A DNA stretch of 49,560 nucleotides from Planctomycetaceae bacterium (lineage in GTDB: Bacteria > Planctomycetota > Phycisphaerae > Phycisphaerales > SM1A02), in the NCBI GenBank assembly GCA_027483065.1, contig JAIXVI010000316.1, positions 1-49,560 of the forward strand, given 5' to 3'. This document shows positions 22,363-30,825 of this stretch, piece after piece (positions within the stretch are counted from its first letter, which is position 1; each line of letters starts with the position of its first letter). Below the pieces are notes generated by a model. That model did not search any database, was not told where the DNA came from, and saw only the letters and a program-made list of their open reading frames with translations. Both the position numbers and the translations under genes were made by a program.

Positions 22363-23061
22363 ATGAACGTCTTCAAGACGGCGGTTGTCGCATGGAACCG
22401 GGGTGCGGGGGCAACCAAGGCGAAGGGGTCGAGTGTCGCGCGAGCGGCCGCGCTTGCGAGTGCAGGCGCCGGGCTTGCGTGTGCCACGCTCGCGCAGGGC
22501 GAGGTCATCGCCGCGTGGAACATGAACGGATTCGTGCCAGGTTCCGCGGGCACGATCGCTGCCTCGACCGGCATCGGTTCGGTCGATTTGACGCCGTTCG
22601 GCGACGGGGTAGGCACGCTTCTTGGTACGACCCTCGGTGCACTGGAGGGTGACATCGCGGGCGAGTCGCTTTCGATCGCGGGTAATGGCTACAACGGCAT
22701 GGCGCTGACGTTCGGCTTCGATGCCTCGATGCATCGCGACTTGTCGGTGAGTTTCGCTGTTCGCCGCTCGTCGACAGGCTTCGCAACCAACCGAATCGAA
22801 TGGTGGTCGGGCTCTAAGTGGACGACCCTCACGACGTTTGGCGCGAGCACCACCACGTGGGATCTTCGCTCGTTTGACTTCAGCGCCGTCGACGCGATGG
22901 ATGGTCAGTACGGATTGTTCCGCTTCGTGCTTGATGGCGCGACGGGCTCCACGGGCAGCATTCGATTCGATAACGTCGCCTTCAGTGGAACCGTACTGCC
23001 GGCGCCGGGCGCAGTGGCACTGCTCGGGCTCGCTGGAGTTGTCGCTCGACGACGCCGTTGA
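22363..23061 (+). CDS. PEP-CTERM sorting domain protein
   Basis: A 232-residue exported protein. It has a long N-terminal signal region ending near ATLAQGEV, a beta-rich body (FSGTV, SSTGFATNRIEWWSGSKW) of the lectin-like kind often seen in such proteins, and the C-terminal sorting signal PAPGAVALLGLAGVVARRRR: a PxP-like motif, a membrane helix and an arginine cluster. Proteins like this are processed by an exosortase and moved to the surface; no exosortase is in the window. The start has a strong GGAAGG site 6-8 bases upstream. The body is not recognised more closely. Confidence 0.85.
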   Translation: MNVFKTAVVAWNRGAGATKAKGSSVARAAALASAGAGLACATLAQGEVIAAWNMNGFVPGSAGTIAASTGIGSVDLTPFGDGVGTLLGTTLGALEGDIAGESLSIAGNGYNGMALTFGFDASMHRDLSVSFAVRRSSTGFATNRIEWWSGSKWTTLTTFGASTTTWDLRSFDFSAVDAMDGQYGLFRFVLDGATGSTGSIRFDNVAFSGTVLPAPGAVALLGLAGVVARRRR

Positions 23062-23193: not shown

Positions 23194-24447
23194 TCACGGG
23201 CTCAACCCAAGCCAATCGTTGAAGAGGAAATCAAAGCGCCCGACGAGGAGCGTGATACGTCCCATGACCGTGAAACCGAACGCAGCACCGAATGTGATCA
23301 TCAGGAACCAAACGCCAACGCGTGCGGTCTTGCCCACGACTCCCTTGTGTTCAAGCGAGAAGAAGAAGTACACGAGCACTGTGATCACACCCACTACGCC
23401 CAAGATCCCAGCGAGCGTTCCACCGAGGTCAAACGCGCTGCCAGCGGCCGCGCCTTCGGCCGAAGACGACGTGTACGCCACCAGCGGTTTCATGGTCGCA
23501 GCGATCTGTGCCATGAAGTCTGCCTCGATCGATGCCGTGAGTCGCATGCCGGCAAACGTGCCAATCACGACCGCGAGCGGCCACACCGCAATCCACGCAC
23601 CTCGCGGAGCGAGTCGCCAAAGAAGCATCATGCCGAGCGCCAGCGGAATGAGTGCGAGCAGGAAATCCTTCCCTGGATGCTCCGATGGTGCGAGCCCTGG
23701 CAGCATCGTCGCGCGAACGAGGTCCGGCGCGAGCTTCGCAAAGAGATCAGGCACAAGCGTGCTCCAGAACGCAACGAGCATCCAATACGCCGCAGAAACA
23801 CCAATCAAGATCGACTCGACAACCTTGTAGAACGGGTTGTCACGCACGAGAAAGGAGAAGATGCCCAGTGTCAGCAGCGCAGCGATCCAGATGCCAATCG
23901 AGTCACGCGGGCTCGCCACAATTCGAGTGGACTCAACCACCTTGAGGGCGTTCATACGAGCGGCTTCGCGTACTTCGAACTCCTCACGCGTCAGCCCGGT
24001 CGGATCGATCGGCGCTGAGAGTTTCTCCGCGTCGCTTTCAAGTGCGGCGATCTGCTCGCGCGCCTTCTTGGGATCCACCTTCGCACGCTCGTCCCAGACT
24101 TCGGTTGCCACACCTTCCACACGGCGAAGTTCGCCGCTTTTGAGACGTGGATCATCCAACTCAACCCACAAACGGGTGGGCGGAGCATTTTCTTGTTCGA
24201 GGCTCGTCGGCGCAAGAGATTCGGAACCCTGTGCGTTCGTTGATGTCCCTTGGGACGTCGGCGCAGGAACCACTTCCGCCAACACGCGCGTTTCCGTCAC
24301 AACCTCAACGTACGCCTCGGCCAATGGGCCGGGACGCCAAAGTTTGCCCGCAAAAATCCCCACTGCGCCAAAGATGAGTAACGCAATCCAAAGACGCGTA
24401 TCGCTCTTTGGTGCACCACTGGATTGCTGTGCGCGATCTGCACTCAT
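23194..24447 (-). CDS. Polytopic membrane protein, last gene of the MutL-like ATPase cluster
   Basis: 417 residues, not recognised as a named family. One membrane segment lies near the N-terminus (LWIALLIFGAVGIFAG). It is followed by about 150 mostly polar residues with a helical, coiled-coil-like stretch (KKAREQIAALESDAEKL), then six membrane segments: GIWIAALLTLGIFSFLV, ILIGVSAAYWMLVAFW, LLALIPLALGMMLLW, WIAVWPLAVVIGTFAG, GILGVVGVITVLVYFFF and VWFLMITFGAAFGFTVM. The start at 24447 gives an ATGA overlap with the preceding gene and has AGGGAG at normal distance. Tight coupling to that gene argues for a shared complex. Function unknown. Confidence 0.85.
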   Translation of the reverse strand: MSADRAQQSSGAPKSDTRLWIALLIFGAVGIFAGKLWRPGPLAEAYVEVVTETRVLAEVVPAPTSQGTSTNAQGSESLAPTSLEQENAPPTRLWVELDDPRLKSGELRRVEGVATEVWDERAKVDPKKAREQIAALESDAEKLSAPIDPTGLTREEFEVREAARMNALKVVESTRIVASPRDSIGIWIAALLTLGIFSFLVRDNPFYKVVESILIGVSAAYWMLVAFWSTLVPDLFAKLAPDLVRATMLPGLAPSEHPGKDFLLALIPLALGMMLLWRLAPRGAWIAVWPLAVVIGTFAGMRLTASIEADFMAQIAATMKPLVAYTSSSAEGAAAGSAFDLGGTLAGILGVVGVITVLVYFFFSLEHKGVVGKTARVGVWFLMITFGAAFGFTVMGRITLLVGRFDFLFNDWLGLSP

Positions 24448-25352
24448 CGAGCGGCTCCCTTCCAACCTCGAGCAGCAAGCATCGAGATATTTCCGAGCAC
24501 AATCAAACCAATCAGAAGGAGGTGCGCCACAAACTGCGGACCCATCCGCTCTCGACCGAGCGCGAGTCGATCCGCCGACCGAGTCACTGGATACTTCTCC
24601 GTCACAAGCATCTCGTATTCCGCGGCGCCTTTAATCGCGATCAGCATGCCTTCCATCTGCTTCGGGTAGTACGGGAGCAGCTGGCTTGATTGCACACCGG
24701 TCGTTCCCGCAACGAACTTGAACGCGTCGGGCATCGCGCTGTCTCCGTACTGCACCCACTGTTGAGCACCTGGAGTTCCCGCCGAGATACTCGCGATCAA
24801 CTGGAAGTCGCCAATCGTGCGAACACCCTCGAGAAGCGGGATTTGCGTGATCGGTTTCCCCGAAGCGTCAGCGGCGTACGCCTCTGCGATCGAAGTCGTC
24901 ATCAGCTTGATCACGCCCTCATTGCCCGTTTTGAATCCGAGTTGCACGTAGTCAACACCCTCAACCTTCTCGGGGTGGTACTCGAGCAAGATGTCGCGAA
25001 TCGCGTCGTCGGCGAGCTGCTTGCCAAGCGGCCAAAGCGCCATGAGCGCGATGCGATGACCCTTCGACGCACAGTGATGAAGTACCGCGTTCGCCATCGG
25101 CTCGAGTTCCGCCGCACTGGCGGGGTCAAAGTCGTAGGCGATGAGGACGCGTGAGCCAGGAGGAATCGATTCGATCGCATTGAACGTCGCTTGGGCCATG
25201 CGGCCTGGGACTTCAGGAAATCGAAGGCGTGTAAGCATGGGGGCCGCGATCGCGACTGCGACCGCGAGGTAAATCCAACGGCGATCAATCTGCCCCATGC
25301 GGATGAGGAAGCCGCGAATGCCGGGAGGAAGTTGTTCGTTGCGCTGCTTCAT
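24444..25352 (-). CDS. Two-helix membrane protein with large alpha/beta domain, MutL-like ATPase cluster
   Basis: 302 residues, no named family recognised. A membrane segment at about 28-45 (WIYLAVAVAIAAPMLTRL) and one at the C-terminus (LLLIGLIVLGNISMLAA) flank a soluble domain of about 220 residues. That domain starts like a Rossmann-type fold (SRVLIAYDFDPASAAELEP, then HRIALMALWPLGKQ, then VDYVQLGFKTGNEGVIKLM). The soluble part should be outside the cytoplasm if the N-terminus is inside. It overlaps the next gene by 4 bases (ATGA). A binding role for the domain is only a guess. Confidence 0.82.
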   Translation of the reverse strand: MKQRNEQLPPGIRGFLIRMGQIDRRWIYLAVAVAIAAPMLTRLRFPEVPGRMAQATFNAIESIPPGSRVLIAYDFDPASAAELEPMANAVLHHCASKGHRIALMALWPLGKQLADDAIRDILLEYHPEKVEGVDYVQLGFKTGNEGVIKLMTTSIAEAYAADASGKPITQIPLLEGVRTIGDFQLIASISAGTPGAQQWVQYGDSAMPDAFKFVAGTTGVQSSQLLPYYPKQMEGMLIAIKGAAEYEMLVTEKYPVTRSADRLALGRERMGPQFVAHLLLIGLIVLGNISMLAARGWKGAAR

Positions 25353-25473
25353 TGGTTCAGTTCAGGAACGGCGTATCGAGAGGAGGTCAGCATCACGAAG
25401 CGGAATCGATGAAGTAGACGAGTACGGGCGAAGTCAGGCTTTCGTGGGCGGCCTTCGGTTCAAAAGCTGCGAC

Positions 25474-26175
25474 TCACCCCTTGGAAAGCGCACTGCGATC
25501 GATGCCCAGGATGAGTCGAAGACTGGTCGCCGCTGTACCCAGCGCGATGCCAATCAAGATCGCGCGCATGCCAGCGGTTTGGAACACCTCGGTCACGATC
25601 GCTTTCAACGACTCCGCACGGAGGAATGCGAAGAAACTGTCTTCAGGAATCCAGTTGGTGAGGAATGCACCCGCCGCGATTTGAACGAGGAGGATGATGA
25701 ACGCTGTACCGAGCAAGAGAATCGCTTCGAAGTTTTTCGCGCGGAATGCGCGGAACGCGGCACTCGCCACGTAGAACGCGAGCAAAGCAAACATCGTCGC
25801 GGTCAGCGGCGACAACACGTACTCATACGCCCAGCCGTATCCCGCCTGTGTCGAGTCCTGAGAGCCTGCGAGATGGACGTCTGGGTGCTTCGCATCTGGC
25901 ACCGCGCCCCACTTCGAAAGCCCCACCACCAACATCGCACCGAAGCTCACCAGCGTGATCGCGGAGTACGCCCAACCCGGTCGCTTCGACGAGATCTTCT
26001 CAAGGTTCACCGCAAGCAGGTTGCCCGCGCCAAGGACGAACGCGACGCCTGCCAGGATGTTGAACCATGAGACGACCTGCTCGCTCCATGTCTCGGTGAT
26101 AGGCGAAAAGTACGAGAGGATCAGGATGAGTCCGCTCGCCGAGAGGATCAGTAATGGAATCGTGCGTTGCAGCAT
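25474..26175 (-). CDS. Six-helix membrane protein, MutL-like ATPase cluster
   Basis: 233 residues with six predicted membrane segments: IPLLILSASGLILILSYF, WFNILAGVAFVLGAGNLL, YSAITLVSFGAMLVVGL, LTATMFALLAFYVASAAF, AILLLGTAFIILLVQIAAG and ILIGIALGTAATSLRLIL. A polar loop with KHPDVHLAGSQDS lies between the third and fourth. No family or catalytic motif recognised. Position in the middle of the cluster, between the DUF6754-like gene and the two-helix protein, argues for a structural membrane subunit. No Shine-Dalgarno site precedes the ATG. Confidence 0.83.
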   Translation of the reverse strand: MLQRTIPLLILSASGLILILSYFSPITETWSEQVVSWFNILAGVAFVLGAGNLLAVNLEKISSKRPGWAYSAITLVSFGAMLVVGLSKWGAVPDAKHPDVHLAGSQDSTQAGYGWAYEYVLSPLTATMFALLAFYVASAAFRAFRAKNFEAILLLGTAFIILLVQIAAGAFLTNWIPEDSFFAFLRAESLKAIVTEVFQTAGMRAILIGIALGTAATSLRLILGIDRSALSKG

Positions 26176-26259
26176 CGTTCAGTCCGTGAGAACCATCATC
26201 TTGAAAGGAATGCGCCCTAGGAAGTCCGCACTTCGCGCTGTTTGCGTCACTCGTCCGTA

Positions 26260-27543
26260 TCAGCCACCAAAGAAACCACGCATACTCGCGACAGCCGATC
26301 CGGCCCACATGCCAAGCGAGCCACCCTCGTTCAGGGCGGCGATCGTGGCAAGTGCGGTTCCAATCAGAATCGCGCCAATCGCAAACGCCTTTCCGACGTC
26401 TTGCCCTTTGATACTTCCGAGTTGATCGCGCTCGCCGGAGAGATAGGCACTTGCCGCGAAGAACTCTTCACCAATCAACGTGTAGTCGCAGGCGGCCACG
26501 AAGAATGGCAACTGCGAGGGCTCGGCGGTGCCGGCGATTTGAATCGCACCGATGGAGTTCCCGTTCTCCGCGAGCACCAAACTTTCCGCGTAGAACGCGC
26601 CCATGTAGAAACACGCCGCAGGCTTCTCGCGCATCATGTGCCCCGAGAGGTACGCGACGTAACCGAATTGCTCGTCGGTGATGTAGTTGATGTTGCCCTC
26701 GGCGTACGTTTCGGGGCGGCCCGCAGCGTGATGCGCCGCTTGCACTTGCTCACGCGCGGCGGTCATCACAATCGATCGGCAGGTTGGCACTTCAAGTCGC
26801 GCGTCATACTCGGCGGCCGTCTGCGCCACGCGACCGAGGATCGTGAGTCCGGCGATCGTCTGGATGTCGTTCATGTCTTGGATACCTGGCACGAACAACA
26901 CCGCGCGGCCCATCTCGGTCGCACGACCGACTGCTTCGTCGACCGCGTCGAGCGCAGCGATGCGCCGGATCTTGAGCGGTCGACCAGAACGCGCAAGCGC
27001 CACCCACACCAGCACCGAAAGCGAGACCACAATCACCGTCAGAAGCAGCGGAAGTCGCTTGAAGGCGAAGAGACTCACCTCTGGGCGAGCTGGTGCCGAC
27101 TCGACAAATTCCGAGAGTTCGCCATCGGTACCAAGGATCGAAACCCGCACTCGCGTGTCTTCGTCGATCGGCACTCCCTTGAGAACGTACGAGCCGTCGA
27201 CACCTGCAACGGCATCACGACCCAAGCGCTCGACTTCGATCCAGAGTTCGTCGGCGTTCTTCGCACGCTCAGCAGCGGTCAGGCTTCGCTCTATCACCAC
27301 ACCGGCGCTCACCGCTGGATCGGGCGTCTTCCAGAAAACGACGAGTACGCCGCCTGCATCGTCCGGCGCATCTTCAAGACGAAGATTCTCAGCAGCCGGA
27401 GGCATGGGCGATGCGGCAACATCTCGTGCAACAAAGAGCGCCATCGCCACGCACGCAAAAGACACGCATGCGGCCGCATACTCGCCCACCCTTTGGAGGA
27501 GTCGCACACTCTCTCGCACGACGCTGGTCGATCGTCTTTGCAT
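26260..27543 (-). CDS. DUF6754-like membrane protein with fibronectin-type extracellular domain
   Basis: 427 residues. A signal-anchor (CVSFACVAMALFVARDVAAS) is followed by a beta-sandwich domain resembling fibronectin type III (GGVLVVFWKTPDP, YVLKGVPIDEDTRVRVSI). Then come a membrane helix (LLLTVIVVSLSVLVWVAL), a conserved-looking cytosolic domain (GRAVLFVPGIQDMNDIQTIAGL, EGNINYITDEQFGYVAYLSG, AACFYMGAFYAESLVLAENG, QLPFFVAACDYTLIGEEFFA) and a C-terminal helix (AFAIGAILIGTALATIAAL). This layout fits the family named DUF6754, from memory, function unknown. The ATG at 27543 is preferred for its GGAGG five bases upstream. The cytosolic part is the natural contact for the ATPase two genes upstream. 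Confidence 0.85.
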   Translation of the reverse strand: MQRRSTSVVRESVRLLQRVGEYAAACVSFACVAMALFVARDVAASPMPPAAENLRLEDAPDDAGGVLVVFWKTPDPAVSAGVVIERSLTAAERAKNADELWIEVERLGRDAVAGVDGSYVLKGVPIDEDTRVRVSILGTDGELSEFVESAPARPEVSLFAFKRLPLLLTVIVVSLSVLVWVALARSGRPLKIRRIAALDAVDEAVGRATEMGRAVLFVPGIQDMNDIQTIAGLTILGRVAQTAAEYDARLEVPTCRSIVMTAAREQVQAAHHAAGRPETYAEGNINYITDEQFGYVAYLSGHMMREKPAACFYMGAFYAESLVLAENGNSIGAIQIAGTAEPSQLPFFVAACDYTLIGEEFFAASAYLSGERDQLGSIKGQDVGKAFAIGAILIGTALATIAALNEGGSLGMWAGSAVASMRGFFGG

Positions 27544-27623
27544 ACATGCCTCCATCAGCGGGTGTCGTCTCTCAGAGCGGCCTCAAAATCACCGCGGTAT
27601 CTCGTAACTTCTTCACGCAGCCA

Positions 27624-28781
27624 TCACGTCTCAATGAGTTCGATGTTCGCGCGCGGAACCGTCACACGACGCGCGGCGCTCGGGCCACCTGCGCGTGCGC
27701 CGTCAGCCTCAAGCTCAACCTCAAGAACACGCGCTTTCGAACCCGAACCAAGCACCGCGGGCTCCGTCGGTAACGCGACGACCGTTCCCAAAATCCCGAA
27801 ATAGGGATCACGAATCAGTCGCACCTGCGTGCCAATCTCAAGCGCACCTTCTTCAGGCCGCGCGCCCTGAGCAGGCACTGCATCACCCGCGCGGCGCGCG
27901 ATCACGATCTCAGGTCGCATCACGCCCGCGCGAATCTGCGTGGCGCCGTTCACACTCGCTTCGCGCCCTTCGTAACTCTTGAGAATCGCGAACGTACGCG
28001 CGGCCATGGCGATGTCGCCGAAGCCCTCGGTCATCACGATCGTGATCCCGATCTTCTCCGTACCTGTAATCGCAACGCCGAGGTCGTACCCGAGAACGTC
28101 GCGCAAATCCGCGTCATCGATGCCGCCCGACACAATCGCGGCAACACCCGCGTCGCGCGCGGCACGCACCGCTTCCGCCGTGATGCGCGCACCACCAACA
28201 ACGACGGCGCCCTTCATGTCCGCACGAATGTCTTTCGCTTCCAGTCGAGCCGAGGGGGTCGAAACCGCGACGCGGAGTGGCCCTACGGTCTCGCCGCCAA
28301 TCCCGAGAATTCCCTGCACGAAGACCGCCTCGGTCTCCACCACCGCGCCCTCGTGGGGAATGACCTCGACGATCGTTCCGTCGACATACGCCTTGACCTC
28401 GACCGGAATCGGCGCGCCGCGCAACATCATCTGTCCAGTCGTTGCGCTGACGCTCTCGACCACCCCAGCAGCGGGCGACGCGAGTTCCTTCTTGCCAAAC
28501 CCAAAGATGCCCTTTGTGCGCGCGATGACGTCGCCTGTCGCAACGTGGTCACCCTTCTTCACGAGGAGAAGACTCGGCACGTCGCTCGCAGGAACCGACA
28601 GGAGCGACGCCAGCGGCACTGGCGTCACGTCACCTTCGATGAATGTTCGCGCAATGACGTCGCGCGCCTGCACACGCGCGCCCACAGCGACCAACACCTC
28701 ACCCGACACCGGCAACTGCCGACGAGCGCGAAAGGTCGTTTGCGCGGACACCTTCAGACCTGGCGTGTATGCCTTCGCCAT
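27624..28781 (-). CDS. Barrel-sandwich hybrid and KOW-like protein next to the MutL-like ATPase
   Basis: 385 residues, soluble. The N-terminal ~120 residues show two hybrid-motif halves (SGEVLVAVGARVQARDVIAR; VKKGDHVATGDVIAR then LASPAAGVVESVS), as in lipoyl/biotin-carrier-like and RnfC-type domains. No lipoyl- or biotin-attachment lysine motif is visible. The middle holds GAVVVGGARITAEAVRAARD and VSGGIDDADLRDVLGYDLG, resembling an alpha/beta nucleotide- or ligand-binding fold. The end (QVRLIRDPYFGILGTVVALP) looks like a KOW motif. GGAAGGA stands before the ATG. The role is unknown; it may link the ATPase to the membrane subunits. Confidence 0.82.
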   Translation of the reverse strand: MAKAYTPGLKVSAQTTFRARRQLPVSGEVLVAVGARVQARDVIARTFIEGDVTPVPLASLLSVPASDVPSLLLVKKGDHVATGDVIARTKGIFGFGKKELASPAAGVVESVSATTGQMMLRGAPIPVEVKAYVDGTIVEVIPHEGAVVETEAVFVQGILGIGGETVGPLRVAVSTPSARLEAKDIRADMKGAVVVGGARITAEAVRAARDAGVAAIVSGGIDDADLRDVLGYDLGVAITGTEKIGITIVMTEGFGDIAMAARTFAILKSYEGREASVNGATQIRAGVMRPEIVIARRAGDAVPAQGARPEEGALEIGTQVRLIRDPYFGILGTVVALPTEPAVLGSGSKARVLEVELEADGARAGGPSAARRVTVPRANIELIET

Positions 28782-28890
28782 CGAGAAATTCCTTCCTGCA
28801 TCGTTCGACGCGCGATGCGAGGTTCGTTCGCGCGCGGCGCTTCATCCTGCGAGTCAGCGCGAGTCATTCGCTCGTGTGCAACGCACCTTT

Positions 28891-28935
28891 CACGCAAGCA
28901 CTACTCACGCAAGTACTACTCACGCAAGCACTCCC
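28891..28935. repeat. 15-base tandem repeat at the 3' end of the MutL-like gene
   Basis: Three units of CACGCAAGCACTACT (28891-28905, 28906-28920, 28921-28935) with one to three differences. The rightmost unit contains the last codons and the stop of the MutL-like gene; the other two lie just behind it in the non-coding gap. Confidence 0.85.
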
Positions 28936-30761
28936 CATGCTTTCGCCCATCGCGCGACGAGCGCGCGTCGATCCGCTTCGTTCTCCGGAAGTGCAAGCGG
29001 CCTTCCGCGCGCATCGAAGAGCAACCCAACCGTTCCACCCTTCAATCGTCGTGTCACGCTCTTGCCCGGCCCGTTCCCGAGATCGAACCCGCTCGCAGGC
29101 TCGACCACAACTTCTACCTCTTGCTCAGGCCCAACGCGCACGAGCGCCACATCACCGCACGTGAGTTCGCCCGATGCCGTCACCGCGCCCGACACGCGAT
29201 AGGCAAAGCAGCGCTTGCCAAACTTGCCTTCGCCCTTCGCGGCGATCGACCAACCAAGTCGCACAAGGCAGTCGCGCTCGAAGACCTCCATCGCAGCTTC
29301 AGGGTGCACGCTCGCGAGCACCCCAAGGTGCGGCATCATGAAGATCGAGTCCTTCGCGAGTTGCGTGAAACCTTGCGGCTCGAAACTGTCGACGAGCATC
29401 GCGGCGGTCTCTTCCATCTTCGGCGCATGGCTCAAAACCCCGCCGGATGCGACAAGGAGATCAAGCCGCATATCGTCGACGATCGACTGACCACTGCCCG
29501 ATTGCGCGAAGAGATCGCCGACGGTGCGTTGCTGCTGCACGCCCTTGAGCGTCGTCGCAAACTCCTTGTGCTGCGCGTACGCGAGGCGAAGTGCTTCGCG
29601 CGCGACGGCTTGCTCGAAGACAAGCGCTTCCGCAGTTTGCGGAATCGTCGTCGGACGAATCATCTTGTTCTTCACGCGATTACGAAGCTCACGTTCATCC
29701 ATCGCGACATGCACCCAGCGCAGCACGTTCTGCATGCCCGCTTCCGCGCAGACGTTCGAGATGGAGTAACTCATGCCGAGATTCGCGCTGACCGTTCGGT
29801 TGAACGTGCCACCGAAGACGCTGAAAACGTCCGTCGTCGCGCCGCCGATGTCCACACAGACCGCGTTGAGTCGATCGCGCTCCGCGATCCGCTGCAGAAT
29901 GTCGCCGACGGCGCCAGGCGTCGGCATGATGGCCGCATCGCTCCACGCGATGAGTCGGTCGTAGCCTGGCGCGTGCGCCATCACGTGTTCAAGGAAGACA
30001 TCGTGAATGCGGTCGCGCGCGGGTCCGAGGTTCTCTTCTTCGAGTGTCGGGCGCAGATTTTCCACGACCGAGAGATCAAAGCCCTTCTCGCCCTTGCCTC
30101 CGAAAATCGCCTCGACTTGCGGCGCGGCTTCTTTGTTTCCCGCGAAAATCACGGGTAACTCGTATTCGCCTCCGAATCGCGGACGTGGCTTCGCCGGCGC
30201 GATCTGCTCAGCGATCTGCACGACTTGCTGTACGTTTCCGCCGTCGGTGCCACCTGAAATGAGCACCATGTCGGGGCGCAACTCGCGAATGCGCTGGATG
30301 CGTTCGAACGGCTTCCGCTTGTCGTTCGACGCAATCGTGTCCATCACGATCGCGCCCGCACCAAGTGCGGCCCGTTTCGCACTCGCGGCAGTCATCTGCG
30401 CAACAACGCCCGCGACCACCATCTGCAGACCGCCGCCCGCGGACGAAGTCGAGATGTAAATGTCGCAACCTTCGGGGTCATCTGCGTTGCGACGTCGCAG
30501 AATCGTGCCGTCGTCGGCGATGAATCGTCGACCCGCCAACTCGCCAATCTCGGTCAGCGCATTCGAAACGCCGATCGTGACATCTGCGAACGGCTCCTCG
30601 ACGGTCGTCGGCGCTTCGGCACGCTGGGTTTGTCGCCACGAGTCGCCGACCTTCTCGATCAGAATCGCTTTGGTCGTGGTCGAACCACAGTCGGTGGCGA
30701 GGATGTAGCGCAACCTCGAAAGGTCGATCGCGGGTTTCGCGGCAGGGACATGCGCGCTCAT
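28920..30761 (-). CDS. MutL/GlmL-family ASKHA ATPase
   Basis: 613 residues from the ATG at 30761. Actin/Hsp70-type (ASKHA) nucleotide motifs are intact: phosphate-1 DCGSTTTK (24-31), SGGTDGGN (169-176), phosphate-2 DIGGATTD (304-311) and the adenosine block ASGGVLSH (438-445). The overall pattern is that of the glutamate mutase L (MutL/GlmL) family, known as chaperone-like proteins linked to B12-dependent mutases. No mutase or B12-binding (DxHxxG) gene is in the window; instead five genes for a barrel-sandwich protein and membrane proteins follow in the same direction. Its job here is therefore probably to drive or assemble that membrane system. ATPase fold firm; role inferred. Confidence 0.9.
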   Translation of the reverse strand: MSAHVPAAKPAIDLSRLRYILATDCGSTTTKAILIEKVGDSWRQTQRAEAPTTVEEPFADVTIGVSNALTEIGELAGRRFIADDGTILRRRNADDPEGCDIYISTSSAGGGLQMVVAGVVAQMTAASAKRAALGAGAIVMDTIASNDKRKPFERIQRIRELRPDMVLISGGTDGGNVQQVVQIAEQIAPAKPRPRFGGEYELPVIFAGNKEAAPQVEAIFGGKGEKGFDLSVVENLRPTLEEENLGPARDRIHDVFLEHVMAHAPGYDRLIAWSDAAIMPTPGAVGDILQRIAERDRLNAVCVDIGGATTDVFSVFGGTFNRTVSANLGMSYSISNVCAEAGMQNVLRWVHVAMDERELRNRVKNKMIRPTTIPQTAEALVFEQAVAREALRLAYAQHKEFATTLKGVQQQRTVGDLFAQSGSGQSIVDDMRLDLLVASGGVLSHAPKMEETAAMLVDSFEPQGFTQLAKDSIFMMPHLGVLASVHPEAAMEVFERDCLVRLGWSIAAKGEGKFGKRCFAYRVSGAVTASGELTCGDVALVRVGPEQEVEVVVEPASGFDLGNGPGKSVTRRLKGGTVGLLFDARGRPLALPENEADRRALVARWAKAWGVLA

Positions 30762-30825
30762 AATCACGCAGCGTAGCGAAACTTGCCTGTCCACGGTTCA
30801 GCGCGGCGCCCCGGCGCGTATCGCA

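Follow-up and report, generated by a model that had tools for sequence, protein, structure and literature searches.

A MutL-family ATPase gene pair and a DUF6754 membrane cassette conserved in Planctomycetota and other bacteria

The MutL/GlmL proteins are accessory ATPases of the B12-dependent glutamate mutase and ornithine aminomutase, and GlmL is thought to reactivate its mutase or to reload the cofactor. In assemblies of the PilM-PilN-PilO/PilP and GspL type, an actin-like protein inside the cell is combined with membrane partners that have outside domains, and in the Rnf/Nqr-type redox complexes RnfC and NqrA contain a barrel-sandwich domain. We examined a locus that recalls each of these systems. 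It comprises six intact open genes (A, B, D, 6, 2 and 7) at positions 23194-30761, all on the minus strand, of a 49,560-nucleotide stretch of Planctomycetaceae DNA (contig JAIXVI010000316.1; hereafter the window), as an earlier reading of the same DNA, the first-pass annotation, had proposed.

Protein A shares PF13941 with GlmL/MutL over its full length, but it belongs to a clade of its own, has a C-terminal extension and is paired with B and a membrane cassette, with no mutase. The likeness to PilM-PilN-PilO/PilP and GspL would be one of layout, as no sequence relation was detected; the single domain of protein 2 lies between a pair of membrane helices and is probably Rossmann-like, and D has an inside domain. 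B shares the barrel-sandwich domain of RnfC and NqrA, but has no conserved cysteine, is not accompanied by Rnf/Nqr membrane subunits and has a KOW-like C-terminus. None of the known systems compared here has this build: the locus departs from GlmL, from the type IV pilus ring and from Rnf/Nqr in a trait that defines each of them. We regard the arrangement as new, although its biochemical job may prove familiar and the ATPase itself is, by sequence, from a known family. No relevant paper on DUF6754 or on the six-gene system was found in the open-licence literature. The loci, the tree and the literature thus agree with the earlier proposal of a conserved, undescribed multi-protein membrane system that is not mutase-linked.

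Two modules and their co-inheritance

The gene-neighbourhood search suggested by the first-pass annotation was run across Planctomycetota and other phyla. It covered 118 distinct loci. They come from Planctomycetota and from records to which the depositors gave the labels Zixibacteria, Neomarinimicrobiota, Gemmatimonadota, Latescibacterota, Eisenbacteria, Stahlbacteria/WOR-3, Coatesbacteria and others. As the loci were collected via D, this gene is present in all of them by construction, while that choice does not determine which other genes are found or in what order. D-6-2-7 was contiguous in 99 of the 118 loci and B stood beside A in 55 of the 62 that hold A. The order A-B-D-6-2-7, or that of its modules, is found across the 118 loci, tens of distant genomes share the order, and the gene set is far beyond chance.

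The system is built from two modules, a cytosolic A-B pair and a membrane cassette D-6-2-7. The cassette precedes A-B in some loci (L051, L060, L074, L139 and L144), stands alone in others, and is tandemly repeated in 22. A and B are fused into a single chain in three Neomarinimicrobiota loci (L081, L086 and L116). Where the operon is scattered the parts are still retained, as in G252 and in G022, with A at ~793 kb, B-D at ~293 kb and 2 at ~3526 kb. The genes are therefore kept together in other genomes, and where they are dispersed the genome still retains them. The six-gene account was right about a conserved multi-protein system, but it did not include a seventh gene, nor the modular organisation in which A-B is joined by one to several D-6-2-7 cassettes.

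Co-inheritance was assessed at the level of whole genomes. DUF6754 was found in 82 of 294 sampled Planctomycetota genomes (28%) and MutL above its cut-off in 84; 76 genomes had both, 6 had D only, 8 had MutL only and 204 had neither (Fisher p ~2e-53, a value inflated by genome kinship, although the pattern still spans many Planctomycetota families). In the Zixibacteria-type phylum that includes locus L098, D was present in 98/98 genomes, mostly in 4-6 copies, and MutL in 95/98, mostly in one copy. Searches of plasmids returned no DUF6754 match.

Partner proteins within one cassette showed correlated distances (r 0.73-0.89), and when partners were swapped among the cassettes of one locus the observed correlation was never reached in 500 trials. 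In eleven three-cassette loci the D proteins of the third cassette formed one clade, and those of the first and second nearly did so. Therefore, the cassettes are old and distinct.

Two further genes accompany the modules. The seventh gene encodes a small protein of ~110-150 amino acids (cluster 0). Of the 52 loci whose upstream sequence was long enough, 35 have it no more than 2 kb from A. The window lacks this gene, but part of a homolog is located at the edge of another contig of the same genome (C160; L225:1-4000), where an ABC-2 type transporter (ATPase and permeases) comes next. The second accessory gene, present in 14 of the same 52 loci, encodes a two-helix membrane protein that weakly matches a bacterial PH domain.

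Coordinates of the six genes are collected in Table 1. The gaps from A through 2 measure 138, 68, 84 and 121 bases, so the range of 80-140 given earlier was slightly off; the overlap of genes 2 and 7 by ATGA stands, provided that gene 7 starts at ATG 24447. An alternative GTG start of A is possible at 30794.

Table 1. The six genes of the system, with positions in the window
Gene	Product	Position	Strand	Basis
A	ASKHA ATPase, MutL/GlmL family, 613 amino acids	28920..30761	-	PF13941; motifs; separate clade
B	Barrel-sandwich protein, KOW-like C-terminus, 385 amino acids	27624..28781	-	Biotin_lipoyl/RnfC_N/KOW matches; fusions with A
D	DUF6754 protein, 431 amino acids	26260..27555	-	PF20539; AlphaFold; FN3; charge counts
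6 (TM6)	Polytopic membrane protein, 233 amino acids, six predicted helices	25474..26175	-	Alignment A5; hydropathy
2 (TM2)	302 amino acids, two membrane helices flanking an alpha/beta domain	24444..25352	-	AlphaFold; fold comparison; charge counts; alignment A2
7 (TM7)	Membrane protein, 423 amino acids (TTG 24465) or 417 amino acids (ATG 24447)	23194..24465	-	Alignment A6; hydropathy; ATGA overlap

Protein architecture and the proposed membrane machine

A matched MutL (PF13941) with 429 bits (cut-off 27) along profile positions 1-450, its full length, and the domain occupies 29268-30704. A has the ASKHA phosphate and adenosine motifs; across 57 relatives, DCGSTTTK, DIGGATTD and SGG vary hardly or not at all, in keeping with the earlier call of an intact MutL/GlmL-family ATPase. 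The C-terminal extension is ~115 amino acids long (28923-29267), and mutase-linked MutLs are without it. Two cysteines of A, C25 and C498, are almost invariant among the system ATPases (0.98 and 1.0), and one of them lies within the phosphate-1 motif DCGSTTTK.

D scored 388 bits with PF20539 (DUF6754; cut-off 27; domain 26338-27078) and is thus a member of a Pfam entry listed as a domain of unknown function. Its layout consists of an N-terminal helix, an outside fibronectin-type (FN3) domain, a membrane helix, an inside Rossmann-like alpha/beta domain (DUF6754) and a C-terminal membrane helix. The AlphaFold model had a mean predicted local distance difference test (pLDDT) score of 90.7. Its FN3 domain matched 7jgt with Z 13.1 (root-mean-square deviation (rmsd) 1.8, 92 aligned), and the inner domain, residues 199-371, matched Sir2 chain 1s7g with Z 11.7 (rmsd 3.3, 137 aligned); Foldseek matches of D were dominated by the FN3 domain. 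Counts of K+R along the chain of D relatives (5.3, 1.2, 5.3, 1.1) place the N-terminus and DUF6754 inside and FN3 outside. These results bear out the topology first suggested for D. The inside domain contains the invariant residues E324, Q339, D357, E363 and E364.

None of proteins 6, 2 and 7 matched a Pfam or NCBIfam family above the curated cut-off. Protein 6 is a conserved family (alignment A5), and charge counts over its relatives indicate a six-helix layout with the N-terminus inside. The AlphaFold model of protein 2 (mean pLDDT 93.1) placed an alpha/beta domain (~24579-25223) between its membrane helices. The best fold matches of protein 2 were Rossmann-like with Z ~8-9 (1kjn, Z 9.1, rmsd 3.9, 143 aligned), which may reflect only a common arrangement. 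This domain most likely faces outside, the charge counts being weaker for protein 2 than for D and 6. Protein 7 has a conserved core of about six helices, and its N-terminal helix and region are lineage-specific (alignment A6 and hydropathy). Profile searches of alignments A2, A3, A4 and A6 against solved structures found only FN3 (in D) and weak KOW/RNA-polymerase matches (in B).

Our explanation draws on the composition, modularity and co-inheritance of the system, the conserved ATPase motifs, and the predicted folds and sidedness. We tentatively regard it as an ATP-driven inner-membrane machine in which a shared A-B module serves one or more D-6-2-7 cassettes, the most plausible account we can offer. 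A-B would dock onto D at its inside Rossmann-like domain. A would switch between states as it binds and hydrolyses ATP, by analogy with Hsp70/actin-fold ATPases, and this switching would work D together with the polytopic proteins 6 and 7. A periplasmic substrate or partner would be bound by the FN3 domain of D and the alpha/beta domain of 2, both outside, and in genomes with 3-6 cassettes one ATPase would serve several of them. The recurrent gene order, the A-B fusions, an A paralog that likewise contains a barrel-sandwich stretch, the co-occurrence of D and MutL, the co-evolution of cassette proteins and the retention of parts in scattered operons argue for such a machine, as do the conserved ATPase motifs, the confident models of D and 2, whose folded domains lie on opposite sides of the membrane, the lack of a recurrent metabolic neighbour, and the near-universal presence of D and MutL in one phylum. 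We lean toward transport or translocation across the inner membrane as its work, rather than assembly of an envelope component. That it represents a new class of such machine, powered by an ASKHA (actin/Hsp70-fold) ATPase instead of one of the ABC, P-type, AAA+ or rotary kinds, core to one phylum and spread over several, is a bolder proposal, which we consider possible and somewhat doubtful.

Several observations weigh against an ATP-driven machine of this kind. Family profiles detected no transporter family in 6, 2 or 7. In one genome (G143), A, B and the seventh gene were found, but neither D nor 2; two loci (L196:6391-9332 and L197:2001-5017) have an additional A-B pair with no adjacent DUF6754 gene, although their genomes encode the full system as well. 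In addition, MutL ATPases are, to our knowledge, otherwise known solely as accessory proteins of B12 enzymes, which speaks for a chaperone-like role.

In the most serious alternative, A-B would be a chaperone that uses ATP to assemble or reactivate an enzyme in the membrane. The active site would be the inside Rossmann-like domain of D, with its five invariant residues, and A would reactivate the enzyme or reload its cofactor. Such a role is possible, and it suits the MutL family membership of A, the strongly conserved polar residues of D and the match to Sir2, whose fold is common to cofactor-binding enzymes. A single ATPase for several cassettes would suit a shared chaperone too, and this feature fits a motor or an assembly factor alike. 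However, no cofactor motif was identified in the system, no metabolic genes constantly adjoin it, and an enzyme is not obviously in need of an outside FN3 domain, a second outside domain and two polytopic subunits. We favour the motor over the reactivase of a membrane enzyme.

It is less probable that the system is a transmembrane sensing or signalling complex, in which the outside domains would sense a ligand or the state of the envelope and the inside domain would set the activity of A-B, possibly by way of the KOW-like domain. The presence of conserved folded domains both inside and outside is consistent with a sensor, as is the accessory membrane protein with its weak PH-domain match. Yet neither regulators nor a constant target gene accompany the cassettes, and two conserved polytopic subunits exceed what a sensor needs; we judge a sensor improbable.

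Relation to redox, mutase and pilus systems

B was assigned earlier as a barrel-sandwich/KOW-like protein following the ATPase, and the matches agree, those to KOW being weak. Among 27 B relatives, Biotin_lipoyl was found in 20, RnfC_N in 17, KOW in 7 and NQRA_N in 5; B of the window itself has weak matches to barrel-sandwich domains and to KOW. A role as a biotinyl/lipoyl carrier was considered and rejected, as the lysine at the candidate modification position (placed by eye) is found in 48 of 63 relatives and is otherwise P, S, N, A or R. The RnfC_N and NQRA_N matches could suggest a Rnf/Nqr-type redox complex with B acting as RnfC/NqrA. However, as regards iron-sulphur ligands, B of the window has no cysteine and none is conserved in the B family; conserved cysteines are likewise absent from 6, 2 and 7, with one in D, and 6 and 7 match no Rnf/Nqr family. 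A redox complex of this type is thus very unlikely.

Membership of A in the MutL Pfam family, and the methylmalonyl-CoA mutase that the source genome encodes (with methionine synthase) on other contigs, would allow the system to be the accessory of a B12-dependent mutase, be it glutamate mutase, ornithine aminomutase or methylmalonyl-CoA mutase. This idea is largely refuted by the following comparisons, and we give it almost no weight. A fell under all curated GlmL/Or-4/GlmL-family cut-offs, with 244.5 bits against the GlmL model NF040745 (methylaspartate mutase accessory protein; cut-off 475, about twice that score) and 170.1 bits against TIGR01319 (GlmL family; cut-off 204.05). Conversely, a model of the system ATPases gave mutase-linked MutLs 29-157 bits and full-length system ATPases ~940-1100. 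Mutase-linked MutLs of Planctomycetota are 416-531 amino acids long, mostly ~460-470, and adjoin mutase E in G267, G251 and other genomes. In the tree, the system ATPases formed a clade with support 98/96, and the mutase-linked rows stood on the opposite side with 100/100; because the branches of the latter are very long, their inner order is unsure. A did not, therefore, group with mutase-linked MutL. Glutamate mutase E was above its cut-off in 6 genomes; five of these encode MutL but lack D, and G267 is the only one with D. It was thus found in 1 of the 82 D-carrying Planctomycetota genomes, and not in G000 (ornithine aminomutase was not searched for). As the first-pass annotation had noted, no mutase or B12 domain is nearby: no match to the B12-binding, MCM or glutamate-mutase-E families was found on this contig.

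The earlier comparison with PilM and PilN/PilO was not supported. A cytoplasmic/inner-membrane ring like that of type IV pili or type II secretion, to which an actin-like ATPase fold and bitopic membrane proteins point by analogy only, is largely refuted and extremely improbable. A matches MutL and not PilM, and Pfam searches with the six proteins and with 56 protein 2 relatives returned no PilM/PilN/PilO family (PilN/PilO, 0 of 56). The domain between the two membrane helices of protein 2 had Rossmann-like folds as its best matches, whereas a ferredoxin-like fold is the mark of the periplasmic domains in such rings. No pilus gene is recurrent among the neighbours.

Neighbouring genes and significance

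Among 110 same-strand, close, operon-like neighbours, no Pfam family occurred in more than 3. As there is no recurrent metabolic neighbour, the system looks self-contained. By sequence reading, FtsY (the signal-recognition-particle receptor) stands directly before B-D in four Planctomycetaceae loci (L057, L063, L097 and L100), and fatty-acid genes (PlsX, FabH, FabD, ACP and FabF) follow the cluster in Phycisphaerae; TolQ/ExbB-like genes lie near some loci. Because each of these is limited to few loci, we did not build on them. In the window, a secreted-looking protein with a PEP-CTERM-like tail (LPAPGAVALLGLAGVVARRRR) is encoded at 22363-23061 on the plus strand and adjoins gene 7. Homologs with 34-54% identity adjoin gene 7 as well at four further distinct loci of Phycisphaerales type (L058/L078, L080, L083 and L101); it is possibly a lineage-specific partner or cargo of the system. 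A distant paralog of A, 835 amino acids long with a barrel-sandwich stretch after the ATPase domain, is encoded elsewhere (L200:6310-8817, plus strand), a short distance upstream of what read as mraZ, ftsL and ftsI genes.

Four of the six proteins belong to no characterised family. The question of what they do is testable, since the locus supplies a part list, cultured carriers exist (Thalassoglobus, L097) and natural fusions mark the contact between the ATPase and its partner. As the system occurs in 98/98 genomes of one phylum, in 28% of the sampled Planctomycetota and in several further lineages, it likely does something basic for these cells, and the MutL family, known as a mutase helper, would have a wider role at the membrane.

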